From: Deltaproteobacteria bacterium
GTDB lineage: Bacteria > Myxococcota_A > UBA9042 > CAIXZC01
Direction: 5' to 3'
DNA length: 36,529 nt
Assembly: GCA_016875215.1 (NCBI GenBank)
Contig: VGRX01000013.1
Span: 1 to 36,529, forward strand
The notes beneath the pieces are model-generated. The model was not told the origin of the DNA, did no database searches, and worked only from the letters and a program-made list of their open reading frames with translations. Below, piece after piece: positions 5,056 to 27,500 of the stretch; the first letter of the stretch is position 1, and each line of letters begins with the position of its first letter. A program made the position numbers and the translations under genes.

Positions 5056-6840
5056 AACAACACGCTCGCTTGCGATGACAAGAACGCGTGCACGACGGGT
5101 GACGTCTGCACCAACGGGGCCTGCGTTCCCACGGGCAAGCTCGACTGCGACGACAAGAACCCGTGCACCAACGACGCCTGCGAACCGCTCAAGGGCTGCG
5201 TGTACGTCAACAACACCCTGGCCTGCAACGATTCCAACCTCTGCACGACCGGCGACGTTTGCAGTGCCGGCAAGTGCGTCGGCAAGCCGGTCGTCTGCAA
5301 TGACAACAACGTCTGCACCGACGACTCGTGCGACGCGAAGACCGGCCTGTGTGTCTACGCCCCCAACACCAGCCCCTGCAACGACGGCAACGTGTGCACG
5401 ACCGGCGACGTCTGCTCCGCCGGGAAGTGCGCCGGCAAACCGGTCGTCTGCGACGACAAGAACCCGTGTACGCAGGATTCCTGCGTCTCGCCGGCCGGAT
5501 GCGTGTACGTCAACCTGCCGAACGGGACCAAGTGCGACGACGGCAGCCTGTGCTCGAACAACGACCAGTGCCTGCTGGGCAAGTGCGTCGGGGCGGCGGT
5601 CAACTGCAACGACAACAACGTCTGCACCGACGACTCGTGCGACCCGAAGACCGGCTGCGTCTACAAGAACAACACGGCCCTGTGCAACGACTCGAACGCC
5701 TGCACCACCGGTGACGTGTGTGCGAACGGCAAATGCGCAGGCAAGCCGATCGTGTGCGACGACAAGAACTCGTGCACCAACGACTCGTGCAATCCGGCCA
5801 CCGGCTGCGTCTACCAGGCACTGCCGTGGGGTTCGAAGTGCGACGACGGGAGCGCTTGCACCACCGGTGACCAGTGCCTCTGGACGTTCTGCTTCGGCCA
5901 GTCGCTCAACTGCAACGACAACAACGTCTGTACCAACGACTCCTGCGACCCGAAGACCGGCTGCGTCTACACGAACAACACCAATGCCTGCGATGATGCC
6001 AATGCCTGCACGGGGGCGGACAAGTGTGCGGATGGAAAGTGCTCCGGCACCCCCATCAAGTGCGACGACCTCAATCCCTGCACGGACGACTCATGCGTAC
6101 CGGCAACCGGGTGCAAGTTCGTGAACAACACCGCACCGTGCGACGACGGCAACTCGTGCACGGTCGGCGATGCCTGCTCTGCCGGCACGTGCAAGGCGGG
6201 CACGACCAACCTGTGCACCGGCTGCTCGGCTCAGGAGAAGGGCGGATGCAACGGCTGTGCATGCGAGAAGTGCGTGTGCGCCATGGACCCGACGTGCTGC
6301 ACCGTAGCCTGGACCGCGGATTGCGTGGCGCTGTGCAAGAACGCCTCGTGCCCGCAGACCTGCCAGCTCAACGGCTGCAACACGCTCCCGCAGAAGGGGT
6401 GCGGCGGGTGCGCTTGCGAGAAGGCGGTATGTGCGGCGGACCCGTTCTGCTGCAACGTTGCATGGGACAACATCTGTGCGGGCGAGTGCAAGTCGATCGG
6501 CAACTCGGTGTGCGGCTCGCCGGGCGGGGCCGGATGTGCCACCTCGCTGGCCGGTGAGAAGGGGTGCGGCGGTTGTCCGTGCGAGAAGGCGGTCTGTGCA
6601 GTCGACTCGTTCTGCTGCACCACGGCGTGGGACGCGCTCTGCGTCAGCGAGTGCAAGAACTTTTGTGTGGCCCACTGCCACAAGTCGGGCGGGCAGGGTT
6701 GCCGCGTGCATGCCACCAAGGGGTGCGGCGGCTGTCCGTGCGAGAAGGAAGTCTGCGCCAACGACGCGGCCTGCTGCAACAGCCAGTGGGATGCGTTCTG
6801 CGTCGTGGCCTGCGCCAACCTCGGCTATCTCTGCAAGTAG
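5056..6840 (+). pseudogene. Severed C-terminal half of paralogue 2: CTDC repeats and four WD/CC modules
   Basis: This is the direct in-frame continuation of the 2644 gene after its TAG. All Cys spacings stay intact through the remaining CTDC repeats and four terminal modules (CC..AWTADC, CC..AWDNIC, CC..AWDALC, CC..QWDAFC), ending in YLCK then TAG, as in paralogue 1 (YLCK) and paralogue 3 (YICK). No ATG with a ribosome-binding site occurs at its beginning; the first start-like codon in frame is a GTG at 5200 inside a repeat, without a convincing Shine-Dalgarno. It is therefore unlikely to be an independent gene. It is either the dead half of a recently broken gene, a readthrough product, or evidence of a base-calling error at 5053. 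Read through, the protein would be 1,398 residues. Confidence 0.8.
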
Positions 6841-6852
6841 TATCCGGACCGG

Positions 6853-6884
6853 GCGGAGGGCGGTTTCAGCCGCCCTCCGCTCTT
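6853..6884 (+). terminator. Rho-independent terminator after paralogue 2
   Basis: A perfect 11-bp GC-rich stem (6853-6863 with 6870-6880, six-base loop TTTCAG) is followed by TCTT. It begins 12 bases after the TAG at 6838-6840. The T-run is short, but position and stem strength fit a terminator. That it sits at the end of the downstream half supports 2644-6840 having been one gene. Confidence 0.75.
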
Positions 6885-7004
6885 CCCCTGCACTTTCGCC
6901 CAGGTCATCCGCTTTCCTTGTCGTCCGGACGATTTGGGATTCCCAAATTCACCATCAACTCCAGCGCTACCCCGGCACACTGACCCCGGCAGACTGTTCC
7001 GGAC

Positions 7005-7088
7005 CACCAGATTGGTGCCAGATGCAAGGAGCGACCGAGCCGGCCAAATGAGGCGGGGCTCAAGCCCCGTCGCAGTGAGGCGGCGACG
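7005..7088. repeat. Cluster of short inverted repeats between paralogues 2 and 3
   Basis: Three hairpin-capable palindromes are visible: CACCA-GAT-TGGTG (7005-7017), a nine-pair GC-rich stem with a CA loop (7052-7071, centred on GGGGCT/AGCCCC), and CGTCGC paired with GCGACG (7068-7073 with 7083-7088). The octamer TGAGGCGG occurs twice (7049-7056 and 7076-7083). Function is unknown; they could be REP-like elements or part of a 5' regulatory region. The rest of the 385-bp gap holds only the terminator and the promoter described separately. Confidence 0.5.
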
Positions 7089-7142
7089 AAGCAACGCCGC
7101 AGGTGGCCCGAGATGGTGGTCCGGGGGATTTCGACATCGGCA

Positions 7143-7171
7143 TTGACAGGGGGGGGGCGGATCCGTATAGT
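7143..7171 (+). promoter_or_regulatory. Sigma-70-type promoter with a G9 spacer tract
   Basis: TTGACA (7143-7148) and TATAGT (7166-7171) lie 17 bp apart, 54 bp before the ATG of the third Cys-rich lipoprotein. The first nine spacer bases are all G (7149-7157). Such a homopolymer can slip, and one base gained or lost would move the spacer to 18 or 16 bp. Confidence 0.75.
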
Positions 7172-7225
7172 GCGCCCGCTCTCAGGCGGATTGACACCAG
7201 TGCCGACATGGCAAAGGAGGAGAAC

Positions 7226-10189
7226 ATGAAGCATCTCGTACTTGGGAAGAGGACAATGGCGCTCGTCGGTTTCGCAGCCCTGCTCTTTGCGAGCGGGTGC
7301 TCGGGATCCGGTTCGATATTGACCCCCGAGGACACCGGCGGAGCAGACGAACAGTCGGGCGATGCAGTCATCGGCACCGACAACCAGGTCGAGGAGGATC
7401 TGGGGAAGGAGGATCTGCCTCCCGCCCCCTGCAAGAGCGATGCGGATTGCGACGATTCCAACCTGTGTACCACCGACAAGTGCATTCCGGGCACCGGGTG
7501 CGAGCACCTGAACAACACGGCGCCGTGCGATGACGGCGATGCCTGCACCGTGGACGACGTCTGCGCCGACGGCGTATGCGCAGGAGGGCACGGGCTCGAC
7601 TGCGACGACCTCAACGCCTGCACGGACGATTCGTGCGACGCTGCCTCCGGTTGCATGCACGTCAACAATGCGGCCGGCTGTGAGGACGGCGATGCCTGCA
7701 CGCTCGGAGACACGTGCCAGGACGGCCAGTGCAAGGGCAAGACTCCCCTCGAATGCAAGGACGACAACCCCTGCACCGATGACACCTGCAACCCGGCCAA
7801 GGGGTGCGAATTCCCGTACAACACAGCCGCCTGTGACGACGGCAACGGGTGCACCGTCGACGACGCGTGCAAGGATGGCCTCTGCGTCGGCAAGCAGACT
7901 CCCGATTGCAAGTGCACCACGGACGTCGAGTGCAAGCAGTTCGACGACAATGACCTCTGCAACGGTACCCTCATCTGCGTCGAGCAGCAGTGCGCGATCG
8001 ACGAGACGACGGTCGTCGTTTGCGATAGCGAGAGCACCCCGGCTTGTCATGTGGCCGCATGCGTCCCGGAGACGGGCAAGTGCGAAGACAAGATGGCGGA
8101 TGACGGCGTCGCGTGCGACAACGGCGACAAGTGCACCACGAACGATACCTGCAAGGGAGGGAAGTGCGAAGCCGGCGAGACGGTCACGTGCGACGACGGC
8201 AGCGTCTGCACCGACGATTCCTGCACGCCTGACGAAGGGTGCGTGTTCACGGCCAACAAGGCCGCCTGTGACGATGGAAGCGAATGCACGAAGGACGATG
8301 TCTGCGCCGAGGGGCAGTGCGCCGGCATCCCGATCGAGTGCAACGACGCCAACGGCTGCACGGACGACTCGTGCGATCCGCTCGTCGGCTGCGTGTTCAC
8401 CAACAACTCCTCGGCCTGCAACGACGACAGCTTCTGCACCGAGAACGACGTCTGCCTGGACGGGAAGTGCGGTGGGACCGCGGTCGTCTGCAGCGACGGC
8501 AACGGGTGCACGGATGACACCTGCGACCCCAAGCTCGGATGCGTCTACACGAACAACACGGCCGTCTGCGATGACAAGAACAAGTGTACGGTCGGCGACA
8601 TCTGCGGCGAAGGCGCCTGCCTGGCGGGGGCCCCGGCCGACTGCGACGACAAGAACGTGTGCACGTCCGACACGTGCGTTCCGGAGGCGGGCTGCGTGCA
8701 GGTCAACAACGCCAACGCGTGCGAGGACGGCGACCTGTGCACCACCGGCGACATCTGCAAGGACGGCAAGTGCGGCGCCGGTGCGGCGGTAGTCTGCAAC
8801 GACAACAACCCCTGCACTGCGGACAAGTGCGACCCCAAGATCGGGTGCGTGTTCACTCCGGTGGCGGATGACACCAAGTGCGACGACGGAAACGCCTGCT
8901 CCACCGGGGACAAGTGCAAGGCGGGTGTCTGCGGCGGCGTCGGGCTCAACTGCGACGACAAGAACCCGTGCACGGACGACAAGTGCGACAATCCGCAAGT
9001 GGGCTGCTACCACGTGTACAACACCGCCAAGTGCGACGATGGGAATGCCTGCACCGTGGGTGACATCTGCAGCCAGGGTGTCTGCCAGGCCGGCAAGACC
9101 CCCCTGGAATGCAACGACAAGAACCCCTGCACCAACGACAAGTGCGACCCGGCCACGGGCTGCGTCTTCACGAACAACGGGCTGTTCTGCAATGACGACA
9201 ACGCCTGCACGACGACGGACCAGTGCTCGGGCGGCAAGTGCGTCGGCAAGCCCAAGCTGTGCAACGACCTGAACCTCTGCACGGACGACTCTTGCGATCC
9301 CAAGACCGGATGCCTGTTCGCACCCAATACGCTCGGTTGCGACGACGGCAACGCGTGCACCCTGGCCGACAAGTGTGCGGACGGGCAGTGCAAGGGCGGC
9401 ATGCCGCTGCTCTGCAACGACTCGAATCCGTGCACGGACGACACTTGCGTTCCTGCCACGGGTTGCAAGTTCACCAACAACACCAAGCCGTGCGACGACG
9501 GAAACGTGTGTACCGGCGGCGACGTGTGCAACGGCGGAAGCTGCCTCGCGGGCAAGGTCAACATGTGCAACGGCTGCAACGTCAGCGACAGCAAGGGGTG
9601 CAACGGCTGTGCCTGCGAGAAGTGCGTGTGCGCCATGGATCCCTACTGCTGCGAGGTGAAGTGGGATTCCTCCTGCGTGAGCGAGTGCAAGAGCACCTCC
9701 TGCCCCCAGACCTGCCAGATGAACGGCTGCAACCCGCTTCCGCAAAAGGGGTGCGGCAACTGCGGCTGCCAGGCCTGCGTGTGCGCCGAGGACCCGTTCT
9801 GCTGCAACACGGCGTGGGATTCGCTCTGCGCCAGCGAATGCCAGGAGTGCGGCTCCGCGTGCGGCGCCCCCGGCGGCGCCGGCTGCCAGAATTCCGTCCC
9901 GGGAGAGAAGGGATGCGGCGGCTGCGCTTGCGAGGAGGCCGTCTGTGCGGAGGATCCGTTCTGCTGCAACACGGCGTGGGACAGCATCTGCGTGAACGAG
10001 TGCATCAACGATGCCGTGGCGCACTGCTACAACACCGGCGGCCAGGGGTGCAAGACGCACGAGACGAAGGGCTGCGGCGGCTGCGCCTGCCAGGTCAAGG
10101 TCTGCGCCGCGGAACCGTCCTGCTGCAACACCAAGTGGGATGCCAAGTGCGTCCAGAAGTGCATCGACACCGGCTACATCTGCAAGTAG
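7226..10189 (+). CDS. Giant Cys-rich CTDC-repeat lipoprotein, intact (paralogue 3)
   Basis: I chose the ATG at 7226 because AAAGGAGGAG stands just before it and the next residues form a lipoprotein signal ending in FASGC (Cys25); an in-frame ATG-initiated extension to 7103 would put the signal internally and start upstream of the promoter. The 987-residue product has the same architecture as its neighbour: acidic linker, CTDC-type repeats, the DETTVVVC / CVPETGKC island near residues 230-295, more repeats, then four terminal modules (CC..KWDSSC, CC..AWDSLC, CC..AWDSIC, CC..KWDAKC) and a GYICK ending. It is shorter than the reconstructed second paralogue, so repeat number varies between copies. 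Probably a lipid-anchored, cell-surface disulfide-rich rod. Function unknown; adhesion or matrix binding is only an inference. Confidence 0.9.
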   Translation: MKHLVLGKRTMALVGFAALLFASGCSGSGSILTPEDTGGADEQSGDAVIGTDNQVEEDLGKEDLPPAPCKSDADCDDSNLCTTDKCIPGTGCEHLNNTAPCDDGDACTVDDVCADGVCAGGHGLDCDDLNACTDDSCDAASGCMHVNNAAGCEDGDACTLGDTCQDGQCKGKTPLECKDDNPCTDDTCNPAKGCEFPYNTAACDDGNGCTVDDACKDGLCVGKQTPDCKCTTDVECKQFDDNDLCNGTLICVEQQCAIDETTVVVCDSESTPACHVAACVPETGKCEDKMADDGVACDNGDKCTTNDTCKGGKCEAGETVTCDDGSVCTDDSCTPDEGCVFTANKAACDDGSECTKDDVCAEGQCAGIPIECNDANGCTDDSCDPLVGCVFTNNSSACNDDSFCTENDVCLDGKCGGTAVVCSDGNGCTDDTCDPKLGCVYTNNTAVCDDKNKCTVGDICGEGACLAGAPADCDDKNVCTSDTCVPEAGCVQVNNANACEDGDLCTTGDICKDGKCGAGAAVVCNDNNPCTADKCDPKIGCVFTPVADDTKCDDGNACSTGDKCKAGVCGGVGLNCDDKNPCTDDKCDNPQVGCYHVYNTAKCDDGNACTVGDICSQGVCQAGKTPLECNDKNPCTNDKCDPATGCVFTNNGLFCNDDNACTTTDQCSGGKCVGKPKLCNDLNLCTDDSCDPKTGCLFAPNTLGCDDGNACTLADKCADGQCKGGMPLLCNDSNPCTDDTCVPATGCKFTNNTKPCDDGNVCTGGDVCNGGSCLAGKVNMCNGCNVSDSKGCNGCACEKCVCAMDPYCCEVKWDSSCVSECKSTSCPQTCQMNGCNPLPQKGCGNCGCQACVCAEDPFCCNTAWDSLCASECQECGSACGAPGGAGCQNSVPGEKGCGGCACEEAVCAEDPFCCNTAWDSICVNECINDAVAHCYNTGGQGCKTHETKGCGGCACQVKVCAAEPSCCNTKWDAKCVQKCIDTGYICK

Positions 10190-11760: not shown

Positions 11761-14700
11761 ATGCGGAATGCAGTCCCTGTTCCGGTGCGATTGCAGGTGT
11801 CTTGTGCCATCTGGGCGATCGGCGTGTTTCAGTTGCTTGTCGCGCCAGGGTGCGCCCCGTTGCCTGAGGGGCTCGGCCCCGGGCCGGGCGGCAGCGGCCC
11901 GGTGGTCCTGTTCGACCTGGAGGCACGGCCGCTGCCCCAGATCCCGTTTCCCAACGACCTGGCCACGCGGCTGGCCCCGGAGTCTCCCACGGGGCGGCTT
12001 CTGAACCTCAGCCTCAACGCTCCGACGCAGCTCGAGGAGGAAATCCGCCTGCGCGCGGACGAGCTGGACGGTTTCGGCACGTACGCCCCCATCTCGGTGG
12101 GCTTCGACGGCCCGCTGGACCTGGCCGACCTGCATCACCGCCATCTCGACAACCGCGACTTCTCGGACGACGCGGTGCTCGTGGTCGACGTAACCCCCGG
12201 CAGCCCGACGTACGGTCAGCCTGCGATGCTGGACATGGGAAGGGGCTTCTTTCCCGCCAACCTGAAGTACACGGATGCCTATTTTGCCAACGACCCGAGG
12301 GCCCAGGGGACAAACCTCCTGTACGAGAGCTACGACGAAGGGGCGGGGCCCGACACCGATGCCGACGGCGTCGCGGATTCGCCCAACGTCGAGCCCCCGG
12401 GGAGCGACCCCTGGGACAACCTGCTGACCGACTTCGAGAAGGAGACCTCCACCCTCATCATCCGCCCGGTCGTTCCGCTGCGGGAGCGGACGCGCTACGC
12501 CGTGGTGCTGACGAGACGGCTGCTGGGCCAGAAGGGAACCGGCGCCTCGTGCAAGGAGGACGCCGATTGCGGCGAGACGGGACGTTGCGACCCGAAGGCG
12601 GAGCGTTGCCGTGAGCCGGTGCGCTCTCCGTTCCGCCTCAACCACCACTTGCGCCAGCTCGACGAAAACGCACCGCTGGCCGACATCCTGCCCGGTGAGC
12701 CGTACCGGCTCTCACCGGACGAGATCTCGTTTGCCTGGACCTTCACCACCCAGTCCGTGACGGCTACTCTCGTGGCCATCCGGAACGGCCTGCACGGCGA
12801 GGGCACACTGTCCCGCTTGGCGTCGGAGTTCCCGGCAGCGCTCAATCTGATGCCGACCAAGACGCCGGAAAAAGGGGCGGAGACGGGCAGCCTTTTCGTG
12901 GTCGACATCGACGAGATCATGGCGATAGCCGGTCCCCTTCTGCCCAGCCTTGCAGGTATCATCCCGAGCCTTGCCGAATCGCAGCAGGTGCTCATCGACA
13001 GCTACCGGTACGTGGACTTCCTCGTCGCCGGGACGTTCGAGAGCCCGGACTTCCTGGTGGACCGGGATGGCGTTTCCGTTCCGGGGCATCCGGCAAACGA
13101 CGACGAGATCTTCGAGGTGGCCCCGGATACCGGTGAGGCCGTCTACGGCAGAGGGCAGGTTCCCTTCATCTGCATCATTCCCAAGGAGAACCCCGGGGGC
13201 TGGAAGGACGCCGACTTCCCGCATCTGGACGGCAAGGCGCCGTTTCCCGTGGCGATCTTCCTCCACGGCACTGCGTCCTCGAAGCTGCAGGCCATGGGAT
13301 TCGGCGGCCACTTCGCCCGGCTCGGAATCGCCACCTGTGCGATCGATGCATTTGCCCACGGCATGCCCTTCCCCGCTGTTGCCGCACCGGGCAGCCTGAT
13401 GTCCGAGGCGAACGTGAAGATGCTGATCAGCGCGTTCGCTCCGGGTTACGGCCCGATCTACGACGTGATGAAAGGGGTCCGGGCCCGGGATCTGAACATG
13501 GACGGCAACCTGGATCCCGCCGGCGACTTCTGGACCATGGACCCGTTCCATACCCGCGACTGCATCCGGCAGACGGCCGTGGACCTGGTCCAGTTCATCC
13601 GGATCCTGCGAAGCATGGACGGCACACAGCGTGCGGACGTGGACGGGGATGGCGAGGAGGAGCTGCTCGGGGACTTTGACGGCGACGGCAAGGTGGACAT
13701 CGGCGGTCCTGCGAACCACTACTACGCCTACGGCATTTCGCTGGGGGGCATCGTCACGTCGGTCTTTTCCGGAGTGGAATCCGCTCTGGATGCGGCCGTC
13801 GTGATCGTTGCCGGCGGCGGGCTGGCGGACGTTGCGGTTCGCAGCACCAACCCGGGGGTCCCGGAGATGGCGGTCATGCCTGCGCTGGGTCCGATGCTGG
13901 TGGGGGACCGCGACCCGGATTCCGGAGAGATGGTGGTACGTTTCGTGATCCCGGTATTCGACCACACGGAGCTGCTCGAGGTGGCGCGGCTGGACAAGGC
14001 ATCGGAAGGTACCACGGTCCGCCTGACCAACGTCGATTCCGGCGAATCGAGGTTTGCCGCGGTGGACGGGACGGGCAAGCTGCGCATCCACATCGCTGCC
14101 GACGCCATCCGGGCTACGGAGCTGCGCCACTACACCGGATTCGACCCGCAGCTCAGACTCGGCGGAGCAGCGTGCAAGGGGGACGGGGAGTGCGAGGCGG
14201 GTATGCCCTGCCGCCAGGGCATCTGTGCGTGCAATGGGGAGAAGGACTGTCCGTCCGGGCACACGTGCACGCCTGAAAGCCAGTGCCGCATGCTTCCCCA
14301 ACCCATCGACACGACGCTGGCGACGGATGCCCACCCGGCACTGGGGGACCGGTTCCTGCTCGAAGTGCTCGACGCGTCCGGCAAGGTGGTGGAGAGCGTG
14401 GAGCAGTTCGAGGCGGACGTCACGGTCAATGGCATCATCTACCCGAAGGGGATCCCGCTGGTCAACCTGTACCGCGGCTATGGGAACGTGCGGCAGACTC
14501 CGGCATTCCGGCGTTTCATGGGCATTGCCCAGACCATCCTCGAGCCGGGGGACCCGGTCAACTGGGCGTCGCACTATGCGCTCGAGCCGCTGGCTCCGCC
14601 TGCATCGGACAAGTCGAGCAGGCCCGGGACGAACGTCGTGGTTCTGCTGGGCGTGGGGGATACCAACGTGCCGGTCGCAACGGGGGTCGCTCTGGCACGC

Positions 14701-15348
14701 GCTGCCGGCGCTGTCGGCTACCGTGACGCGGACCCGCGCTTCGAGGGCCGTTCGGAGATGGAGGTGCTGGTCGAAAACGACGTCGTCGAGGGGCTGTTCA
14801 ACCGCTGTCGATACAAAGTCGCTGTCAAGGACAAGGACGGAGAAGTCCGGGATTCGTGCCTCCTGTTCGATCCGGACGATCTCGATTCGAGTCGCAATGC
14901 CGGTCCCTGTGACGATTGCCAGGCCACGTACGACAAGAAGGGGGAGAGCATCACCGGGTGGGTGTGCTCGGATGCCAAGGGCAACGCCTGCGGAGACGGG
15001 TTCAATGCACCCACCGACCTGCCCGAGCCGGTCCGCGCCACCGCCGTGCTGCGTGACGGCATAGCGGTTCCCGCGCGGGAAGCCGGCGCGTGCACGCGCA
15101 AGAACGCTGACGGCACGTGTGCCGTGTTCGAGGATCCCCAGGGCGTGCTGGGACTGCGGTTCGCGCTCACTCGGCCCGAGGGCTTCCACGGGCTCTACCT
15201 GATGGCCCCGTACAAGCCGTTCGACGTCGAGACCTACCAGCTCAACATGATTGCCCGTTACTTCATGTCCTCGGGTACCCAGCTCTGGGACGATCCCTGC
15301 CTGGAAGACACCACCTGCTCCTGGGTCCCCCAGTGGCCTGAGGAATAG
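11761..15348 (+). CDS. Large secreted VolA-like lipase / alpha-beta hydrolase
   Basis: The ATG at 11761 follows GAGGAGGT. The 1,195-residue product begins with a hydrophobic export signal ending in APGC, which is a poor lipobox, so lipidation is possible but uncertain. Residues about 60-260 (PFPNDLATR, LNLSL, LDGFGTYAPIS, IIRPVVPLRERTRYAVVL) resemble the bacterial virulence-factor lipase N-terminal domain (PF12262) found in Vibrio VolA. The alpha/beta-hydrolase part has an FLHGT oxyanion motif near 500 and a nucleophile elbow YGISLGG with Ser near 660. An Asp-rich Ca-binding-like segment (DVDGDGEEELLGDFDGDGKVD) precedes the elbow. Two small Cys clusters (about 265-285 and 800-850) are inserts typical of this kind of organism. 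A GVGDTNVP motif near 965 may supply the catalytic acid. Expected role: surface or periplasmic hydrolysis of phospholipid or other esters. It converges with the FadL-type gene. Confidence 0.8.
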   Translation: MRNAVPVPVRLQVSCAIWAIGVFQLLVAPGCAPLPEGLGPGPGGSGPVVLFDLEARPLPQIPFPNDLATRLAPESPTGRLLNLSLNAPTQLEEEIRLRADELDGFGTYAPISVGFDGPLDLADLHHRHLDNRDFSDDAVLVVDVTPGSPTYGQPAMLDMGRGFFPANLKYTDAYFANDPRAQGTNLLYESYDEGAGPDTDADGVADSPNVEPPGSDPWDNLLTDFEKETSTLIIRPVVPLRERTRYAVVLTRRLLGQKGTGASCKEDADCGETGRCDPKAERCREPVRSPFRLNHHLRQLDENAPLADILPGEPYRLSPDEISFAWTFTTQSVTATLVAIRNGLHGEGTLSRLASEFPAALNLMPTKTPEKGAETGSLFVVDIDEIMAIAGPLLPSLAGIIPSLAESQQVLIDSYRYVDFLVAGTFESPDFLVDRDGVSVPGHPANDDEIFEVAPDTGEAVYGRGQVPFICIIPKENPGGWKDADFPHLDGKAPFPVAIFLHGTASSKLQAMGFGGHFARLGIATCAIDAFAHGMPFPAVAAPGSLMSEANVKMLISAFAPGYGPIYDVMKGVRARDLNMDGNLDPAGDFWTMDPFHTRDCIRQTAVDLVQFIRILRSMDGTQRADVDGDGEEELLGDFDGDGKVDIGGPANHYYAYGISLGGIVTSVFSGVESALDAAVVIVAGGGLADVAVRSTNPGVPEMAVMPALGPMLVGDRDPDSGEMVVRFVIPVFDHTELLEVARLDKASEGTTVRLTNVDSGESRFAAVDGTGKLRIHIAADAIRATELRHYTGFDPQLRLGGAACKGDGECEAGMPCRQGICACNGEKDCPSGHTCTPESQCRMLPQPIDTTLATDAHPALGDRFLLEVLDASGKVVESVEQFEADVTVNGIIYPKGIPLVNLYRGYGNVRQTPAFRRFMGIAQTILEPGDPVNWASHYALEPLAPPASDKSSRPGTNVVVLLGVGDTNVPVATGVALARAAGAVGYRDADPRFEGRSEMEVLVENDVVEGLFNRCRYKVAVKDKDGEVRDSCLLFDPDDLDSSRNAGPCDDCQATYDKKGESITGWVCSDAKGNACGDGFNAPTDLPEPVRATAVLRDGIAVPAREAGACTRKNADGTCAVFEDPQGVLGLRFALTRPEGFHGLYLMAPYKPFDVETYQLNMIARYFMSSGTQLWDDPCLEDTTCSWVPQWPEE

Positions 15349-15354
15349 GCATTC

Positions 15355-16689
15355 CTACAATCTCCAGAGCAGATCGAACGCCAGGATCATGTTGGCCCCG
15401 TATCCCTTGGCGTTCGACGGTGGGTCGGTGGGACTCTCCTGGTTGTCGGTGAGGTCGTACCAGTTCCGCTCGAACGCGGCGCCGATGCGCCATGCGTCGC
15501 TGACGTTCCACCGCAGTCCGGTCCCGACGCCGATGCGATCGCGGTTGGGGTTGTCCAGCGTGACCATCGGGGTCGGAATCGGGGACCAGTCGCGAAGCAC
15601 GCCCACCATGAACTCCCACGACGGGGTGACGTGGCAGAGCACGCCGAGTGCGACGTTGAGGGAGTTCCCGTAGTTCTTCGGGTCGACGAACTCGGTCTTT
15701 CCCATGAGCGGGGCGTCCAGCACGGTCCGCTGTTCCTGGAGCACCTGGTAGTGCCAGTAACGAATGTCGGCTGCCACCTCGAAATCGTCGGAAAGCCGCC
15801 AGTTGATCCCGCCCTGGAGCGTGAAGGGAATGGCGAGGCTGGTGGTGTGGCCGATGGTCGTCACGTCGCCGGTCGGCTCCTCGAGAGTCACGCTCCCGTC
15901 CAGGTGCACCGGCGCCCCGGAAGCGAACATGGCACCGATGTCCAGGGTCGGAAGGGGGCGCAGCAGGACGCCGATGTCGCCGGTGAACGTGTACCCGAAA
16001 CCGGACAGCTCCATGCGGGAATCGGTGGGCCAGACCCCCTCGTCGAACCGCTTGTCCGGGTCATCGAAGACGAGCGGATTCATCATGCGGGATGCCTTCA
16101 TGTGGATCATCAGGCAGTTGAGATTCGCCCCCAGCACCAGCCGCGGGTCGATCTCCACGGCAGCGGACGCGGTCGCACGTGCGGCGATGAAGAGAACGTC
16201 GAGCGCCATGTAGCGCGTGGGCTCGTCCTCAGGGAGGGAGGTTCCGAACACGTTGGGAGCGTAGGCAGCGATTCCGACCCGCCAGCGTTCCGTTGCGAGG
16301 TCCGATGTGACGGCGAGAAACGGACTCACACCCATGGCGGTCTCGGGCGAGATGGTGTGGTCGGGATGGAGGTGGCCCTGGCTGTCGTACAGTCGAATGC
16401 CGGCGTCGAACAGGAACGTGGAGGCCGAGAAGTATGCTGCAGTCCCTGGAGTCAGCAGCAGCCCTGCCGGGTTGTGGAAGATGGCGGTTGGATCATCGGG
16501 GTGCGCAATCACGGCCAGCATGCCTACGCGGCGGGTCCCGAAATCCACGTTGGAGAACCCCCCGGCCTGGACGGGGAGAGCCGTCCACAGGATCATGGCA
16601 GCGCAGAGGGTGGCGGCAAGACGTGGAGAAGGCGCTCGCTTCCGGACCCACCGGCTGCAGGCCCGGGCGGGTATACCCTTCTTCGTCAT
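15355..16689 (-). CDS. FadL/TodX-type outer-membrane channel for hydrophobic compounds
   Basis: The 444-residue product has a long basic signal peptide ending near PVQAGG, then an N-terminal hatch-like region with DDPTAIFHNPAGL, the hallmark of the OMPP1/FadL/TodX family (PF03349). It continues with alternating amphipathic beta-strands and ends in an aromatic/hydrophobic C-terminus (FDLLWRL) as barrel proteins do. FadL homologues passively move fatty acids or other hydrophobic molecules across the outer membrane. The ATG at 16689 follows GAGGAAG and overlaps by four bases (ATGA) the stop of the upstream lipocalin frame, which signals translational coupling. Only six bases separate its stop from that of the convergent VolA-like lipase. 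This placement suggests uptake of lipase products. Confidence 0.85.
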   Translation of the reverse strand: MTKKGIPARACSRWVRKRAPSPRLAATLCAAMILWTALPVQAGGFSNVDFGTRRVGMLAVIAHPDDPTAIFHNPAGLLLTPGTAAYFSASTFLFDAGIRLYDSQGHLHPDHTISPETAMGVSPFLAVTSDLATERWRVGIAAYAPNVFGTSLPEDEPTRYMALDVLFIAARATASAAVEIDPRLVLGANLNCLMIHMKASRMMNPLVFDDPDKRFDEGVWPTDSRMELSGFGYTFTGDIGVLLRPLPTLDIGAMFASGAPVHLDGSVTLEEPTGDVTTIGHTTSLAIPFTLQGGINWRLSDDFEVAADIRYWHYQVLQEQRTVLDAPLMGKTEFVDPKNYGNSLNVALGVLCHVTPSWEFMVGVLRDWSPIPTPMVTLDNPNRDRIGVGTGLRWNVSDAWRIGAAFERNWYDLTDNQESPTDPPSNAKGYGANMILAFDLLWRL

Positions 16690-16883
16690 TCCGCTTCCTC
16701 GGACAGCACGACGCTCTCGATGAATGCGGGCCCGGTGAGCTTCTTCTTCTCGGTGCCGAGGTCGATCTCGATATCGGCCTCCGCTTCGAGCCGGTAGACC
16801 ACCGGGTTGCCGGCGAAGATCCTGACCACCTGCTGCTGTGCGGCGTTCATCTGGTCGAGGAGGGCATCCCGGTCATGAAGCCG
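16686..16883 (-). pseudogene. Severed C-terminal part of the Svf1/AttH-like lipocalin protein
   Basis: The frame of the lipocalin gene continues open for 65 codons after its TGA at 16886-16884. The continuation (RLHDRDALLDQMNAA, then RIFAGNPVVYRLEAEADIEI and LTGPAFIESVVL) looks like the closing strands of a lipocalin/Svf1-like domain: G.P..YR followed by an amphipathic strand and G.A..E. The frame ends in TGA overlapping the FadL ATG as ATGA, the arrangement expected at the true end of an operon gene. An internal ATG lies at codon 13 of the continuation, without a clear Shine-Dalgarno. Either the gene carries a recent nonsense mutation, or the stop is read through, or base 16884-16886 is miscalled. 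Confidence 0.72.
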
Positions 16884-17792
16884 TCATCCGGTGAACGTCC
16901 CGCTCACGCGCACCGGGTCGTTCTTCCGGCCCGCCTTGAACTTGTACCGAGTGGCATAGTCATGCCCCTTGGGATCGTTCTTCTTCTTGTCGGTGGACAG
17001 CGAGATGGAATCCGTGAAGAGGAGCATTCCGTCCTTGCCCGTCACCATCACACGGGCCACCAGCTTGCCGCCGAGCTCCTTGCGGGCCTTGAACGTGATG
17101 AAGACGACGGAGTAGTCCGAGTGGAAGAAGCGTGCGACGTACCAGTGCGACGCGTAGTCGGTGCCCAGCGCATTCTGCACCATGTGGTCGAGGTACGCGT
17201 CCCCCTCGAACGCATAGCTCTGGCCGTCGATCTCCGCCGTTCCCGTGACCGAGGCCCTCGGCACCTGGTAGAAGATGTCGACGTACTTCTCTGCATCCTC
17301 GCCGAGCTCGAGCCTCCCGCCGTAGACTTTCACACCGTCAGCCCACAGTCTCCCCTGGAGGTCCATCTTGAACTGGCTCTCCTTGACCTTGACGGTGAAG
17401 TCGCGTCCTTTCAGCGCAATCCAACTCGCGCCGACCCCGATACGGCCGATCTTCGGATCCTCGCCGTACTCGCTGGTCTTGTGCTCGAATGCCAGGTGGA
17501 CCGAGCTCTTCCCGGGCCTCGAGTAGGATACGTTGACTGCGGCGCTGCCTGCGAAGACCCCGAGGTTTGTGTAGATGAAGTTGAGGTAGACGATGTGGCC
17601 ATCCCTGGAGCGGGCAGCCATGGTCCAGCTCTCGGTATAGTACTTGTGCTTGTCCGGATGCCGGAGCCAGTCCTTGTCCGTCGTCTTCCGGGTCTTCGCC
17701 CCCGACTTCACCGGGGTGACATCGCATCGGGCGGACGCTGACGGCAGGACGAGGCCTGCCAACAGGATCAGCGCTGCGAGGTACCGCCTCAT
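16884..17792 (-). CDS. Svf1/AttH-like lipocalin-fold exported protein, ended early by TGA
   Basis: The ATG at 17792 is one base after the TGA of the preceding lipoprotein gene and is followed by a clear signal peptide (RRYLAALILLAGLVLPSASA). The 302 visible residues contain KYYTESWT, LNFIYTNLGVF, a central beta-rich core, AYLDHMVQNALG and ASHWYVARFFHSDYSVVFITF, an order resembling the Svf1-like and AttH/CrtC lipocalin-like families (paired beta-barrels that bind hydrophobic ligands). The protein stops at GTFTG just before what looks like its last strands, which lie in frame downstream. I infer a periplasmic carrier or chaperone for a hydrophobic molecule acting with the FadL-type channel. Family assignment is by pattern only and is moderately sure. 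Confidence 0.75.
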   Translation of the reverse strand: MRRYLAALILLAGLVLPSASARCDVTPVKSGAKTRKTTDKDWLRHPDKHKYYTESWTMAARSRDGHIVYLNFIYTNLGVFAGSAAVNVSYSRPGKSSVHLAFEHKTSEYGEDPKIGRIGVGASWIALKGRDFTVKVKESQFKMDLQGRLWADGVKVYGGRLELGEDAEKYVDIFYQVPRASVTGTAEIDGQSYAFEGDAYLDHMVQNALGTDYASHWYVARFFHSDYSVVFITFKARKELGGKLVARVMVTGKDGMLLFTDSISLSTDKKKNDPKGHDYATRYKFKAGRKNDPVRVSGTFTG

Positions 17793-17793
17793 C

Positions 17794-18594
17794 TCAGTTC
17801 TCCTGGATCGTGGCGGCCTGCGCCGTCCATTCGAACTCGAACTCCCATGCATCCGCGGTCTTGTCGCCGTCGAGATCGAGGTCGGGAGGGATGTCCGACT
17901 GCTCGAGGAACTTGTCCAGCGGAAGGCCGAGAACGGTGATTCCCGCCGCTTCCTTTACGGTGAGCGCGCCTACGAGCTTCCCCTCGGCAATCGCACTGCC
18001 GTCGACGGCCACCCTGCCGCTCAGCTCCAGCTCGCGAATGGGGAGCTCCGGCGGCTTGAGCGCTGCGTTCGGGAAGACCAGGAACGCCGACTTGGCTGTG
18101 GTGAAACGGTCCCCCTCGAGGATGCAGCCGACCTCGCTCCCGTCGTCCTGGAACGCGAACGAGTCGCCGGATGCCTCGCCCGCGCCGATGCGCAACGTCA
18201 GCTCCCCCGTGTCGCGGTCGTCCAGGAGCACGTCGAGCAGCACGTTGAGCCCCTTCTTCTCGACCTCGGAAGCAAAGTAGTCATTGAGCAGCTTCAGGAC
18301 CTCACCGGTGAACGGCCCGTTCAGGACGAGCGAGTCGAAGCGGTACGCCCTGTCGGACAGGTCCGCGACCTCGACGAGCGGGACATCCTCGATGGCGTCC
18401 GCTGCCGGACCGCCCGCACAATTGCAGTTGCAGGTGCAATCGCTCGTGCCGGTGCACTCGACCTTCTGGCCCTTCGGGTTGAGCGGGTCCCCGGGAAGCG
18501 CTCCCTTGCCCAGCCCGGTGTACGTCTCGTCGATGCCGCAGGCAAGCAGCCCGAGAAACGGCAGAGCGACCGACAGCGGCCGGGGGATTCCCAT
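17794..18594 (-). CDS. Lipoprotein of unknown function, first gene of the FadL operon
   Basis: The 266-residue product starts with a textbook lipoprotein signal (LLAC, Cys19) after GAGGAGGAA. A short segment with five closely spaced cysteines (CTGTSDCTCNCNC) follows, then about 190 residues of alternating beta-strands and amphipathic helices without any motif I recognise. Near the C-terminus is an Asp-rich loop (DLDLDGDKTADAWE) like an EF-hand or dockerin Ca-binding loop. The 13-codon upstream extension to 18633 was rejected because the Shine-Dalgarno and signal peptide fit the ATG at 18594. It is the promoter-proximal gene of a three-gene operon with the lipocalin protein and the FadL-type channel, so an envelope role in the same process is likely. 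Confidence 0.8.
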   Translation of the reverse strand: MGIPRPLSVALPFLGLLACGIDETYTGLGKGALPGDPLNPKGQKVECTGTSDCTCNCNCAGGPAADAIEDVPLVEVADLSDRAYRFDSLVLNGPFTGEVLKLLNDYFASEVEKKGLNVLLDVLLDDRDTGELTLRIGAGEASGDSFAFQDDGSEVGCILEGDRFTTAKSAFLVFPNAALKPPELPIRELELSGRVAVDGSAIAEGKLVGALTVKEAAGITVLGLPLDKFLEQSDIPPDLDLDGDKTADAWEFEFEWTAQAATIQEN

Positions 18595-18736: not shown

Positions 18737-19813
18737 ATGAAGACGAACAATTTTGCTGGCCGTGACTGGATTGATGGGGAGCTGGACTACTCGAAGGAAG
18801 AGTGGGAGACCCTGATCGACCTTGCGCTGCATCTGAAGCGCGAGTTCGCCATGGGCAAGGACCAGAGCTACATCCTCAAGGGCAAGACGCTGTTCTCGAT
18901 GTTCTTCAACCAGTCGCTGCGGACCCGCAGCACGTTTGCTGCCGGAATCCAGCAGCTTGGCGGCTTTTACAACGAGCTCGATCCGGGCAAGACCTATACG
19001 CCGGCCCGCGTCGGCTACGAAGTCCCCTACAAGACCGAGCGCGTGTGCGACGTGGCCCGCATGCTCGACCGAGTCGGCAACGCGATTGCCATCCGCATGT
19101 ATGGCCCGCCCGCTCACTGGATCTATGGCTTTGCCAATACGATGATCAAGGACTTCGCGGACAATGCCGGCATTCCGCTGATCAACATGGAATGCGACAT
19201 GTACCACCCCTGCCAGGCCCTGGCCGACGTGATCACGGTCAAGGAGAAGTTCGGCGGATTCAAGGGGGTCAACCTGACCATGTCCTGGGCCTACTCGGGA
19301 TCGTTCGAGAAGCCGCGGGCCGTGCCGCAGAGCGTGGTTCTTGCTGCGACCAAGATGGGCATGAACGTCACCCTGGCGCACCCCAAGGGCTTCGACCTGG
19401 ATCCGACCGTCATCCAGCACTGCAAGCAGTTCTCGAACGAAACCGGCGGGTCGTTCAAGATCACGAACGACTTCGACCAGGGCTTCGAGGGTGCGCACGT
19501 GGTGTACCCGAAGTCGTGGGGCACGGCCTCCTGCTTCAACTACACCGATGCGACCGGCAAGATCGTCAAGAAGGCCGACCACGTGGATGCGGAGTCCAAG
19601 TTCAACAAGAACAAGAAGTGGCGGACCACCCAGAAGCAGATGGCTCTGACGGCCAAGGGCGGCATCTACATGCACTGCCTGCCGGCCGACCGCAGCCAGG
19701 AAGTGGATGACGACGTGATCGACGGACCGCAGAGCGTCGTGATCGACGAGGCTGAGAACCGACTCCACGCCCAGAAGGCCATCATGGCCCTCATCATGGG
19801 CGGCCGCTTCTAG
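18737..19813 (+). CDS. Knotted-type carbamoyltransferase (acetylornithine carbamoyltransferase / YgeW-like)
   Basis: The 358-residue product carries the transcarbamylase signatures: SLRTRSTF near 60-67 (carbamoyl-phosphate binding), HPCQ at 157-160 and MHCLPADR near 312-319. The SMG loop of classical ornithine carbamoyltransferase is absent. Instead it has SWAYSGSFEKPRAVP around 183-197 and YPKSWG near 257-262, as in the knotted branch that includes Xanthomonas N-acetylornithine carbamoyltransferase, Bacteroides succinylornithine carbamoyltransferase and E. coli YgeW. The ending IDEAENRLHAQKAIMA is close to the acetylornithine enzyme, while TLAHPKGFDL and HCLPAD are closer to YgeW, so the acceptor substrate is uncertain. 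Shine-Dalgarno AAGGAGGAG precedes the ATG. Likely role: arginine or citrulline metabolism in the cytoplasm. Confidence 0.88.
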   Translation: MKTNNFAGRDWIDGELDYSKEEWETLIDLALHLKREFAMGKDQSYILKGKTLFSMFFNQSLRTRSTFAAGIQQLGGFYNELDPGKTYTPARVGYEVPYKTERVCDVARMLDRVGNAIAIRMYGPPAHWIYGFANTMIKDFADNAGIPLINMECDMYHPCQALADVITVKEKFGGFKGVNLTMSWAYSGSFEKPRAVPQSVVLAATKMGMNVTLAHPKGFDLDPTVIQHCKQFSNETGGSFKITNDFDQGFEGAHVVYPKSWGTASCFNYTDATGKIVKKADHVDAESKFNKNKKWRTTQKQMALTAKGGIYMHCLPADRSQEVDDDVIDGPQSVVIDEAENRLHAQKAIMALIMGGRF

Positions 19814-21944: not shown

Positions 21945-24386
21945 TCAGGGGCACGTCGGGTTGACGAGGCCCGGGCTCGAGAGATCTCCGCAAGCAGCCG
22001 GCTCACAGGCGGCCTGCCAGTTCGCACCGTTGAGCGCATAGTCAAGCGTCGGGTCCCCCCAGGAGGGCTTGAGCTGCACAGCGACCCGCTTCCCGTCCTT
22101 GTCCTTCGGGGCAGGAATCGGGGCCTGGGATCCGAACGTCAGGGCAAACAGCTCCGTCCCGTTGCAGGAGAGCTTGAGCGCATCCCCCGACTTGTCGAGG
22201 TTCGGGGTGGTCCCGTAGCCGAAGAAGTTGGGAGCATCGAAAGCGGGGTTGGCAGCCTGGACGAGGACGAGGTGGCCCTTGGGCGGGATCATGGCATTGC
22301 CCTTGATCGTTCCGGAGCCGCCGGCGTCCGCAATGGCACACCCTGCCAGCAGGACCGCGTCATTGGCCAGGTTGAACAGCTCGAACCAAAATTTGCCATC
22401 TGCGCAGCCGGCCCCCGCGTTGGTCATGATCTCGGTGGGGATGATCTCGCCGGGCAGCGGAGCCCTGGCGCAGGTCGGATTTCCCTGCCAGGTCACGCAC
22501 GTGAAGATGCTCCCGCAAGGGGGCTCGCACGACTTGGGGGGCTCGCCGCACGAGGTGTTGGCTGCACCCGGCGTCCCCACGTCACCGCACGGCATGGCTT
22601 CGGTCGCCAGGCACCAGTTGGCCGGGTTGGCAGCGAAGCCCGCGGTCACGGCCACGCCGGGGTTCATGCTGAGCTGTGAGGCGACCCGTGGGATCATCCC
22701 GGCCTCGTTGGCCGGGCCGTCGTCCGGCTTGGGCAGACCGCCCGTCCCGTACTTGAGGTCGAACTGGGCGTTTCCGCCGCAGACGAGCTTCACTGCGTCG
22801 CCGTCCTCGTTGAAGTTGGGCGTCGAGCCGTACAGGGCGATTCCGTCGCCGGTCATGAGCTGCTGGGTCTGGGCGAGCACCAGGAATCCGCCCGGCGGAA
22901 GCAGCACCTGCCCCTTGAGCTCGGTCTCCCCCGTTTCGTCGCCGAGCTTGCACCCCGCGAGTTGGAGCCAGTCGGTCCCCGGGTTGTGCACCTCGATCCA
23001 GTCCTTGCCGTCCGAGCACGCATCGCCCGCATTCGAAAGGATCTCGGTGAGCAGGACTTCTGCGGCTGCCGGGGGACGGACGCAGACCTCCTCCCCGCCG
23101 GCCAGCACGCAGGTCGACCCGGCCGGGCACTGCGTCACGCAAGGCGTGCAGGTGGCGCAGGCGCCGCACTCGGGATTGGGGGCGCCGGGCGTCCCCGTGT
23201 TGCCGGTAGCACCGATGGGATTCCCTTCCGGAGCGACATCCCAGTTCGCGCTGTTGTGGTAGTCCGATGCCGTTGCCCCCGCGGGAAGCCGTTCCGGACA
23301 GACCTGGATCGACACCCCCTTGGCCGGCTTGGGGAAGGTGCTCTTGCTCTGGGAGAAGTCCACGTCGAACAGGGTCACCGCGGCCCCGTCCTCCCCAGGG
23401 CACTGCAGGAACAGGCGATCCCCGGTCGAATTCAGGTTGGGGGTCGAGGCGAACGTCATGACCGCATCCACCCCTTCGATCGCCTTGCCGACGAACAGGG
23501 CGAGCTCGCCCGAGCATACCGAGACCGCACCGTCGATCTTGCGCGTCCCGCTGGCGGTTCCGTCCCCGAACGAGCACCCCTGGAGGGAAAGCGTGTCGCC
23601 GGACAGGTTGAGGAGCTCGAACCAGTCGTTGGAATCGACGCCGCCGTACATCACCTCGGAAAGGACGATCTCCCCGGGGACCGGCGTACGCCCCGCCGGC
23701 ACGGACGGGGCCGGCCCCTGCCCCGGCGTCCCGGTACCCGTGTCCCCCGGGATGGCGCCCTGGGTCGCTGCCTGCCATGCCGGACACTCGGAGTTGGCCG
23801 CCTCGCAGTTGAAGTACGCCGCCTGGAGCTCGATGGACTGGTCGGCTTCGAATGCGGGGAAGGGCAGCGCCGAACCGTCCACGCATGGCGCCCCCTTGGC
23901 CCCGAAGACGACCTTGTGGATGGCGAGCTTTCCGTAGGTCTCGATCACGATCTCGACGTTCTCGTCCGGGATGCTGACGGACTTCGAGTACTCGTACACG
24001 ACGAGCCCGTCCGCCACCCCTTCCGGCAGTGGCTGGGCCCCCAGCCGGATCCAGAGGAACTTGCCGGCAGGCACGGTCACAGGCCCGCCCTTCCGGAAGT
24101 CGATCTCCGTGGCCTTGCCTCCGATCTTCTGGATTCGGACCTTGACCGAAGAGAGGTCGATCGTCTCGGCCGATGCGTTGAAGATCTCCAGCCAGCGCCG
24201 GCCCGTCACCGGGGAGCTCGGAGTGACCATGAGCTCCGTGAGCAGCAGGTCGCAGGGCTGGACCTCGGTCTTGACGGACCCGGGGCCCCATGCGGTGAAG
24301 GAGGAGTCCTCTCCCTCGTCTCCGCATGCCCAGGCAAGACCCACCATGAGCAAAGGAAGCAGCAGTCTCGACGTCCACGATGTCAT
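21945..24386 (-). CDS. Lipoprotein with four lamin-tail-like domains
   Basis: The ATG at 24386 has a GGGAGG element 7 bases upstream and starts a lipoprotein signal ending in AWAC (Cys21). The 813-residue product has four copies of a lamin-tail-domain-like unit (LTD, PF00932), beginning near residues 45 (LLLTELMVTP), 225 (IVLSEVMYGG), 440 (VLLTEILSNA) and 645 (IIPTEIMTNA). Each continues with W.E(I/L/V).N and a later ST.N....GD.L.L.C strand. Domains three and four are most alike (DACSDGKDWIEV, AGCADGKFWFEL), so the last duplication is recent. Small Cys-rich linkers (CGACATCTPC) join units. LTDs in bacteria are Ig-like beta-sandwiches often found in secreted or surface proteins with nucleases or phosphatases; here the SNase-like gene follows directly. 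Likely a surface-tethered binding protein; ligand unknown. Confidence 0.85.
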   Translation of the reverse strand: MTSWTSRLLLPLLMVGLAWACGDEGEDSSFTAWGPGSVKTEVQPCDLLLTELMVTPSSPVTGRRWLEIFNASAETIDLSSVKVRIQKIGGKATEIDFRKGGPVTVPAGKFLWIRLGAQPLPEGVADGLVVYEYSKSVSIPDENVEIVIETYGKLAIHKVVFGAKGAPCVDGSALPFPAFEADQSIELQAAYFNCEAANSECPAWQAATQGAIPGDTGTGTPGQGPAPSVPAGRTPVPGEIVLSEVMYGGVDSNDWFELLNLSGDTLSLQGCSFGDGTASGTRKIDGAVSVCSGELALFVGKAIEGVDAVMTFASTPNLNSTGDRLFLQCPGEDGAAVTLFDVDFSQSKSTFPKPAKGVSIQVCPERLPAGATASDYHNSANWDVAPEGNPIGATGNTGTPGAPNPECGACATCTPCVTQCPAGSTCVLAGGEEVCVRPPAAAEVLLTEILSNAGDACSDGKDWIEVHNPGTDWLQLAGCKLGDETGETELKGQVLLPPGGFLVLAQTQQLMTGDGIALYGSTPNFNEDGDAVKLVCGGNAQFDLKYGTGGLPKPDDGPANEAGMIPRVASQLSMNPGVAVTAGFAANPANWCLATEAMPCGDVGTPGAANTSCGEPPKSCEPPCGSIFTCVTWQGNPTCARAPLPGEIIPTEIMTNAGAGCADGKFWFELFNLANDAVLLAGCAIADAGGSGTIKGNAMIPPKGHLVLVQAANPAFDAPNFFGYGTTPNLDKSGDALKLSCNGTELFALTFGSQAPIPAPKDKDGKRVAVQLKPSWGDPTLDYALNGANWQAACEPAACGDLSSPGLVNPTCP

Positions 24387-24473
24387 TTTCCGGCCTCCCT
24401 GACAGGAATCCGTGGCCACTGCGGGCGCACCTGCACGCCAAGGCAACGCCCCGCAAGTCGCACCACCCCGATG

Positions 24474-24565: not shown

Positions 24566-24595
24566 GTTTAACCGGGATGTTGCAGGGGGATGACC

Positions 24596-27500
24596 ATGCG
24601 GACCATTCGCTTCGGGATGGCGATCTTGATTGCGCTGTGGGGGATTGCTTGCGGCTGTTCGAGCAGCCCCAGCCAGGCGCAGCTCGTGCCGGACGGCAAG
24701 GATGATGGGAAGGACGAGGATGCTTCCGGACGAACGGACCAGGAACCGGACGTCGGAGAGCAGGACTTCGGCAAGCCGACTCCGTTCGATGCTCTGGCAG
24801 AGTACGATGCGAGTGAGAACGTGCCGATCGGCCAGAAGTGCAACGAGAACGAGGATTGCGGATTCGGCTACTGCATCGAGGCGCCGCAGGGGAAGATCTG
24901 CACGCACACGTGCATCGAGGATTGCCCTCCGGGATTCGTGTGCAAGGGGACCAGCCTGGGGGGGCCGGACCTGGAGTTCCTCTGTATCCCGACGTACTTC
25001 GACCTCTGTGCGCCGTGCACCACGGACAAGGAATGCGGCGACGATGACGACCTGTGCCTGCCGGTCGGAGGCGAGGGGACCTTCTGCGGCCTCGCTTGCG
25101 TAGGGGCGGAGGACTGCCCGGAAGGCTATTCGTGCAACAGCGTGGTGGGTGCCGGCGGGGTCAGCATGAAGCAGTGCCTCCCCCTGACGGGGAGCTGCTC
25201 CTGCACGCTGGACAACGTGGGGGAGAAGCGGGGATGCCTTCTCGAGAACCTGTACGGAAGCTGTCCGGGCGAGATGGTGTGCCAGGGTGCTGGAGGATGG
25301 TCGTCGTGCAACGCCCCGGAGCCGGAGCCCGAGAAATGCAACGGGCTGGACGATGACTGCGATGGCAAGGAAGATGACGGGTTTGCGGACTCGGACAAGG
25401 ACAGCCTTGCGGACTGCGTGGATCCGGACGATGACAACGACAACGTCACGGACGAAGCCGACAACTGCCCGCTGGATGCCAACCCCAACCAGCTCGACAC
25501 GGACAACGACGGGCTCGGGAACGTGTGCGACGACGATGACGATGGGGACGGAGACCCGGACGAGCTCGATTGCGCACCGCTGGAGCCGCTGGCGCACCAC
25601 AATGCAAAGGAAGTCTGCGACGGAGTGGACAACAACTGCAACAAGCAGGTGGACGAAGGCTTTGCCGACGTTGACATGGACGGGATGGCCAACTGCGTGG
25701 ACCCGGATGACGACAACGACGGCGACCTGGACGATACCGACTGCGATCCGCTCGAAGCCAAGGTGTTCCACGGTGCGAAGGAGGCCTGCGACGGGCTGGA
25801 CAACGACTGCAACGGCAAGGTGGACGAGGGATTCGCGGACCTGGATGGCGACGGGGTGGCGAACTGCGTGGACGTGGATTCCGACGGCGACGCTGACCCG
25901 GATCCCGAGGACTGCGCGCCCTTCAACCCGCTCATCCACCACAAGGCGGCGGAGCTGTGCGACGGCATCGACAACAACTGCAACATCCAGGTGGATGAGG
26001 GGTGGCCTGATTTCGACCTGGACGGGCTGGCCGACTGCATGGATCCGGACGACGACAATGACCAGGATCCGGATGACCTGGACTGCGCCCCGCTCGATTC
26101 GACGATGCACCACGCAGCCAATGAGAAGTGCGACGGCATCGACAACAACTGCAACGGCAAGGTGGACGAGGGCTACCCCAACTTCGACGGAGACGGCGAG
26201 GCCGACTGCATCGACAACGACGACGACAACGACGGGGATCCCGACATCGTGGACTGCAACCCGGTCAACTCCGCGGTGCACCACGGAGCGGGAGAGAAGT
26301 GCGACGGTCTGGACAACGACTGCAACCTCCAGGTCGACGAGCCCGGAGCCACGGGTTGCACCGTGTTCTACAAGGACAAGGACGATGACGGCTGGGGGAT
26401 GAGCAACAAGTTCCTCTGCCAGTGCGGCCCGGCGTCCGACTTCACGGCAACCAAACCCGGCGATTGCGACGATTCCACCTGGAGCATCAACCCGGGTGGC
26501 ACGGAGGTGTGCAACAACCAGGATGACGATTGCGACGGCGTGAAGGACAACGCAGGTGCCCTGGGGTGTGAGAACCACTACGTGGACAAGGATGGGGACG
26601 GCTTCGGCTCCGGACAGCCCTCGTGCGTGTGCTGGCCGACGCCCCCCTACGTCACGAAGAACGGCGGCGACTGCAACGAGAACTCAGCGGCAATCAACCC
26701 GAAGGTGCCCGAGCTGTGCGACGGCGTGGACAACAACTGCAACGGCAAGGTGGACGAAGGGGTGGGTTCGTCTTGCGGAACGTGCGACCCGAGCTGCCAC
26801 CAGGTCAACGTCGGCCCGAAGGGGGACGAGGCATTCACCATGGACGCGGACAACTCGGACGGCCTTGCCATGACGCCGGACGGGTTCCTCGAGCTGAGCG
26901 AGGAGCAGGTCAAGCTGGCGTTCATCTGGATCGCCAACTCTGCGGAGAACACGGTCTCGAAGCTGGACACGGACACAGGCAAGGAAGTGGGCCGCTACTA
27001 CACGTGCGCCGATCCGTCTCGCACCGCGGTGGATCTGTATTCGGATGTCTGGGTCGCTTGCCGCGGGGACGGTGGCGTGACGAAGATCGTCGCGTACGAG
27101 AAGAACTGCGTGGACAAGAACAAGGACGGTGTGATCCAGACTGCCAAGGACGGGAACGGGGATGGCAAGATCCAGGGCGGTGAGATGCTGGCCAAGGGGC
27201 AGGACGAGTGCGTTCGATTCATCACGTACCCGGGCGGCGGATGCCAGCGGGCGGCCGGCGTGGACAAGGAGAACAACGCGTGGATCGGCGAGTGGAACGG
27301 CTCCACGCTGAGAAGACTGAAGGCAGATGACGGCGCGGTGCTCCAGTCGATCGGCATCAGCTGCAACCCGTACGGCCTGGTGCTCGACCAGGACGGGATC
27401 ATCTGGGTGTCGGGCCGCGGCTGCGACAAGCTGATCCGGGTCGATCCGAAGACCAACGCGGTCCAGCACATCGGCCCGCCGTCGGGGAACCTCTACGGAA

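Follow-up and report, generated by a model that had tools for sequence, protein, structure and literature searches.

A lipoprotein, an AttH/Svf1-fold protein and a FadL-type channel form a co-inherited outer-membrane module in Myxococcota that may take up and process hydrophobic glycoconjugates

FadL-family channels of known function import hydrophobic molecules and, to our knowledge, they are generally described as solo actors. We likewise know of no established role for AttH/Svf1-like proteins in most bacteria. The AttH/CrtC/Svf1 superfamily includes AttH NE1406 (2ich), kievitone hydratase (7a0q), 25-phosphosteroid lyase (9fzn), the pericyclases CghA, Fsa2 and Phm7, and yeast Svf1, a ceramide-binding protein (review, PMC10583516). 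Vibrio cholerae takes up fatty acids that VolA has released (PMC9496633). The locus described here resembles these systems in part. Its channel, which we call FadL-X, belongs to the FadL/TodX transporters (PF03349) by score and by an FHNPAGL motif, but it is not the E. coli-type equivalog and has its own lipoprotein (LP) and AttH-type protein (LCN) alongside. LCN shares with the AttH/CrtC/Svf1 superfamily a two-domain lipocalin-like fold and Svf1_C matches, but differs in being exported and in having a FadL channel and a lipoprotein as operon partners. A lipase-like protein encoded next to FadL-X resembles the VolA/Pla-1 phospholipases (TIGR03502) in its N-terminal PFPND-type segment, its Ser-Asp-His alpha/beta-hydrolase character and its adjacency to a fadL homologue; however, it scores far under the cut-off for that family, carries no canonical lipobox, and its pairing with fadL is not conserved. 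In relatives, genes that follow FadL-X carry the full domain set of GH31 alpha-glucosidases (MalA-like), but they fall below the MalA equivalog cut-off (464 bits, cut-off 800) and have their own conserved N-terminal segment, M...TK.K.L...G..N. A literature search of open-licence papers turned up no account of a set that joins FadL to a lipoprotein and a lipocalin, or FadL to glycosidases.

The window, that is, the whole analysed stretch of 36,529 nucleotides, comes from a draft Myxococcota assembly (G000; 857 contigs, 94% complete), and the features of the locus are collected in Table 1. The stop codons of the convergent lipase and FadL-X genes lie 6 bp apart. LCN starts 1 nt past the LP stop without overlap at that junction, and FadL-X is directly preceded by its own GAGGA-type ribosome-binding sequence. 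The carbamoyltransferase on the far side of LP is 76% identical to its syntenic counterpart in the nearest relative (G001). Elsewhere the window encodes four large Cys-rich proteins in succession, built of Dicty_CTDC repeats (1-10189, +), a frame of 832 aa that includes three stretches of lamin-tail (LTD) domain (21945-24443, -), and a protein of 1217 aa that combines seven putative metal-binding motifs of MopE type with a beta-propeller-like region (24590-28243, +).

Table 1. Features of the locus, in window coordinates
Feature	Position	Strand	Remarks
Lipase-like large alpha/beta-hydrolase	11761-15348	+	1195 aa; outside the module
FadL-X, FadL/TodX-family outer-membrane channel	15355-16689	-	444 aa; Toluene_X, FHNPAGL hatch-type motif
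LCN, two-domain AttH/Svf1-like lipocalin fold	16686-17792	-	signal peptide; frame broken by TGA
In-frame TGA of LCN	16884-16886	-	no other copy with a stop
LP, outer-membrane-type lipoprotein	17794-18594	-	266 aa; lipobox LLAC/G
Carbamoyltransferase (OTC fold)	18737-19813	+	divergent to LP; context, outside the module

A preliminary description, made from the window sequence, had joined the lipase, the channel, the lipocalin and the lipoprotein into one four-gene set. The lipase frame does bear the signatures named there, PFPND at residue 62 and a GISLGG elbow with Ser660, together with an HG oxyanion-type motif, a GD with Asp967, and His1143; the positions of the triad Ser660-Asp967-His1143 and of the HG motif are conserved in aligned homologues. 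A sequence search of the lipase against the PDB returned no match. The lipobox of the window copy (VAPGC) is non-canonical, and several homologues have canonical ones. The label VolA-like held for the PFPND segment and the triad but not for the overall score, which reached only 47.1 bits against a cut-off of 383.9 on the VolA/Pla-1 model TIGR03502. The lipase family proved to be large and paralogous: 70 of 90 relatives carry it, often many times over, and the genome of the window has nine stretches that match it. Of 29 further lipase loci that we retrieved, none had a gene for FadL, LP or LCN within 1.5 kb. The nearest relative shares the carbamoyltransferase and the module in synteny with the window, but a GH31 glycosidase gene, following FadL-X, stands on the side where the window has the lipase. 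On this distribution and neighbourhood we rejected the lipase as a member of the module and judge it an incidental convergent neighbour of FadL-X, there by chance. The conserved-neighbourhood search thus left three of the four proposed members in place.

We therefore consider it improbable that, as first proposed, fatty acids released extracellularly by a VolA-like lipase enter through FadL and are then ferried over the periplasm by the lipocalin. The intact triad, a channel above its family cut-off, the close convergent adjacency in G000 and the precedent of V. cholerae VolA all agree with such a scheme. Against it stand the low VolA/Pla-1 score, the GH31 gene in the lipase's place in G001, and the convergent arrangement, which gives the two genes no common operon; the check for co-occurrence of the four families also went against the idea that the lipase feeds FadL.

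In contrast to the lipase, LP, LCN and FadL-X are tied together by both gene order and distribution. Among 284 Myxococcota genomes, orthologues of LCN (E < 1e-100) and of FadL-X (E < 1e-140) were each found in 14, and 13 genomes were common to both; the corresponding Fisher value of 2e-20 ignores relatedness, and it is 0.008 when only the three closest families are counted. The LP subfamily occurred in 14 of the 15 genomes with LCN or FadL-X. Exceptions to joint occurrence were G029, with LP and LCN without FadL-X, and G003, with LP and FadL-X without LCN. LP adjoins LCN in 12 of the 14 LCN genomes, and all three genes are contiguous in the window and in five other genomes (G001, G024, G036, G038 and G114), with an extra FadL gene in between in G001 and with FadL divergent from LP-LCN in G036, G024 and G038. 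G114 lies outside the window's class and yet has LP, LCN and FadL-X in an order and orientation identical to those of the window, which is an independent recurrence of the arrangement. In that genome (L138:689-6064), LP, LCN, FadL and GH31 are tightly clustered on one strand, and the LCN, FadL and GH31 genes overlap where they meet. LP is coupled straight to FadL-X by an ATGA overlap in G003 and directly adjoins it in G002. Since FadL-X is present in several genomes though on another contig or far from LP-LCN, the co-distribution does not merely reflect physical linkage. That LP, LCN and FadL-X constitute one co-inherited outer-membrane module is well supported, and the part of the preliminary description that saw channel, lipocalin and lipoprotein as an extended outer-membrane import set gains good support from the conserved order and the shared distribution.

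The assignment of the channel is secure at family level: FadL-X matched Pfam PF03349 (Toluene_X) with 80.2 bits against a cut-off of 29.7 (1.4e-22), and N, P, A and L of its N-terminal hatch motif FHNPAGL are invariant in the subfamily alignment. It scored below the FadL equivalog model NF007988 (21.7 bits, cut-off 585). Several paralogues of FadL-X exist, and some of them, as in G039 and G038, have no glycosidase gene next to them.

The Svf1/AttH-like lipocalin frame reported earlier between the LP and FadL-X genes is present, with weak Svf1_C and Svf1 Pfam matches: 11 of 12 members match Svf1_C, the best at 6.4e-9, and against a gathering score of 25 the window copy reached 20.5 bits and its G001 orthologue 23.1. 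Read with translation table 11, the window's LCN ends at the in-frame TGA listed in Table 1, beyond which the conserved protein resumes in the same frame for about 64 C-terminal residues, up to 16690. The TGA coincides with an invariant Arg column or adjoins it; aligned orthologues have unbroken frames with a sense codon there, mostly for Arg or Lys, and a phylum-wide scan found the stop only in the window's copy. Because the sequence after the stop is conserved and in frame, the stop would be either recent or a sequencing error. The window's LCN is thus either truncated or mis-sequenced, and what is seen suits a nonsense change of recent date as well as a sequencing error. Consequently, the proposed ATGA coupling to FadL-X stands in part: the overlap exists at the far end of the LCN frame, but only if the TGA is ignored.

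As the window copy is interrupted, we modelled the structure of LCN on the intact G001 orthologue. The model (pLDDT 85, pTM 0.84) shows a two-domain lipocalin-like fold and matches CghA, AttH NE1406, Fsa2, Phm7, kievitone hydratase and 25-phosphosteroid lyase (Foldseek E 1e-13 to 1e-9), with TM scores of 0.59-0.66 to 2ich and about 0.65 to 7dmo; a sequence search of LCN against the PDB gave no match. D40, H44, E53, D199, H200, R218, D270 and H274 are among the invariant polar residues of the family, and because these are many, LCN could be an enzyme as well as a carrier. The periplasmic carrier role claimed earlier would thus be one of two readings of the model, the closest solved folds including enzymes.

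LP bears the clean lipobox that had been noted from the sequence. The Ca loop also noted did not hold as a family trait; DLDLDGDK is absent from several orthologues, and we dropped it as a defining feature. LP matched no Pfam or NCBIfam family. Behind its lipid-bearing Cys comes a conserved segment, CG[IL]DExYTGxGxGALPGDPL, followed by a linker up to about residue 69; in the structure model these N-terminal 69 residues are of low confidence, and beyond them the model is confident and shows a beta-rich domain that includes one long helix. A Foldseek search for a known fold of LP gave nothing below E 0.02, only weak matches to small beta-barrels, and we assign LP to no fold. The conserved segment, lying in a low-confidence stretch of the model, would fit a partner-binding tail.

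LP profiles further uncovered a larger lipoprotein family with the core motif G..yRf..L.i..P....lN.....LNVll.v. We could evaluate the surroundings of 79 additional LP-like loci; at 30 of them a FadL gene lies no more than about 1.1 kb away, where FadL density would lead one to expect about 0.3, and 28 of the 30 pairs are divergent, mostly with gaps of 95-550 bp. A second branch of LP-like genes (L157, L159, L169, L173, L185, L188 and L195) is not beside FadL and follows a gene that we assigned by eye to the PfkB-type sugar kinases, within a conserved housekeeping block, so the LP family is not exclusively FadL-linked.

In many relatives, glycosidase genes recur next to the module. The gene immediately after FadL-X is GH31 in G001, G114 and G004, where the two are coupled or almost so; in G035 GH31 lies near FadL-X with an Omp85-family gene between, and in G029 it is convergent with LCN. 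Outside the class, in G054 and G059, a member of the same GH31 subfamily is encoded a short way upstream of a remote relative of LCN; the G059 locus (L239:2490-10970) encodes, one after another, a FadL-family protein, a lipoprotein of 653 aa, GH31, a GH43-like protein and that LCN relative. Two further kinds of glycosidase gene stand next to FadL-X: a GH43-like one flanking it in G001 (second locus), G024, G008 and G036, and a GH36-like one placed after it in G017 and G035. From these gene neighbourhoods, the glycosidases appear to be recurrent partners of FadL-X and LCN, an excess over chance that we judged by their rarity. The GH31 subfamily was not found in G017 and G036, though LP, LCN and FadL-X are present there. 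The GH31 proteins have no evident signal peptide, and removal of sugar by them would therefore have to be cytoplasmic.

Envelope sugars also come into view beside some FadL-X genes: genes for a PelF-like glycosyltransferase and PelG are convergent with FadL-X in G039 (L093:3585-6507), and a PIG-L gene adjoins it in G038. These neighbours, the envelope character of all three module proteins, and a fold family for LCN that includes both ceramide-binding Svf1 and enzymes for polycyclic or steroid substrates would suit an alternative in which the substrate of FadL-X, LP and LCN is endogenous, a glycosylated lipid, a sterol-like lipid or a hydrocarbon that they transport or remodel at the outer membrane for export or homeostasis rather than scavenging. 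We regard this as unlikely, given that known FadL-family channels import, that the GH31 and GH43-type neighbours belong to degradative families, and that a patchy distribution suits a nutritional trait better than membrane homeostasis.

In the source genome itself, a search of the draft assembly did not find the module-type GH31 subfamily or the GH43-like gene. Because of this and the stop in LCN, the copy of the module in G000 may be decaying. In the strongest form of this possibility the module is inactive in G000, with LCN lost by nonsense mutation, the glycosidases gone and FadL-X serving as a generic channel. The position of the TGA in a conserved C-terminal region and its uniqueness among the copies found point that way; the conserved, in-frame sequence beyond it, the intact LP and FadL-X frames and the incompleteness of the assembly point the other way. 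We hold inactivity to be somewhat unlikely, and it would be compatible with a reading of the module at family level.

Our preferred reading, to which we assign a probability of roughly 0.5, is that LP, LCN and FadL-X form an outer-membrane module for the uptake and processing of a hydrophobic glycoconjugate, with the lipase an incidental neighbour. An amphiphilic or hydrophobic substrate would cross the outer membrane through FadL-X; LP, lipid-anchored in that membrane, could use its conserved tail to dock on the channel or would itself receive the substrate; and LCN, in the periplasm, may bind the substrate and then carry or chemically modify it. The glycosidases encoded nearby, GH31 above all and the GH43-like and GH36-like proteins, would strip sugar from it. 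Because glycosidases are encoded beside the module in many relatives, we infer that a glycolipid or other hydrophobic glycoside is the likeliest substrate. Import as the direction would follow by analogy with what is known of FadL-type channels, and we likewise infer the contact between LP and FadL-X and the part of LCN as enzyme or carrier. The absence of FadL-X from G029, the glycosidase-free FadL-X paralogues, the missing signal peptides of the GH31 proteins, the lack of the GH31 subfamily in G017 and G036 and the interrupted LCN of the window count against the preferred reading.

In reading this locus, the lipase is to be dropped and the glycosidases weighed instead. Beyond the window, we tentatively propose, at somewhat less than even confidence, that an unrecognised family of Myxococcota lipoproteins are dedicated FadL partners, and that LP-LCN-FadL-X with GH31, GH43 and GH36 glycosidases serves glycolipid uptake and deglycosylation, with the AttH-fold protein as carrier or enzyme. 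If this is true, a FadL channel can belong to a multi-protein outer-membrane machine, and a lipoprotein family adjoining FadL would extend across the phylum, one branch of it adding an AttH-fold protein and glycosidases. Bacterial AttH/Svf1-like proteins would thereby gain a testable physiological context, tied to glycosidases rather than lipases.
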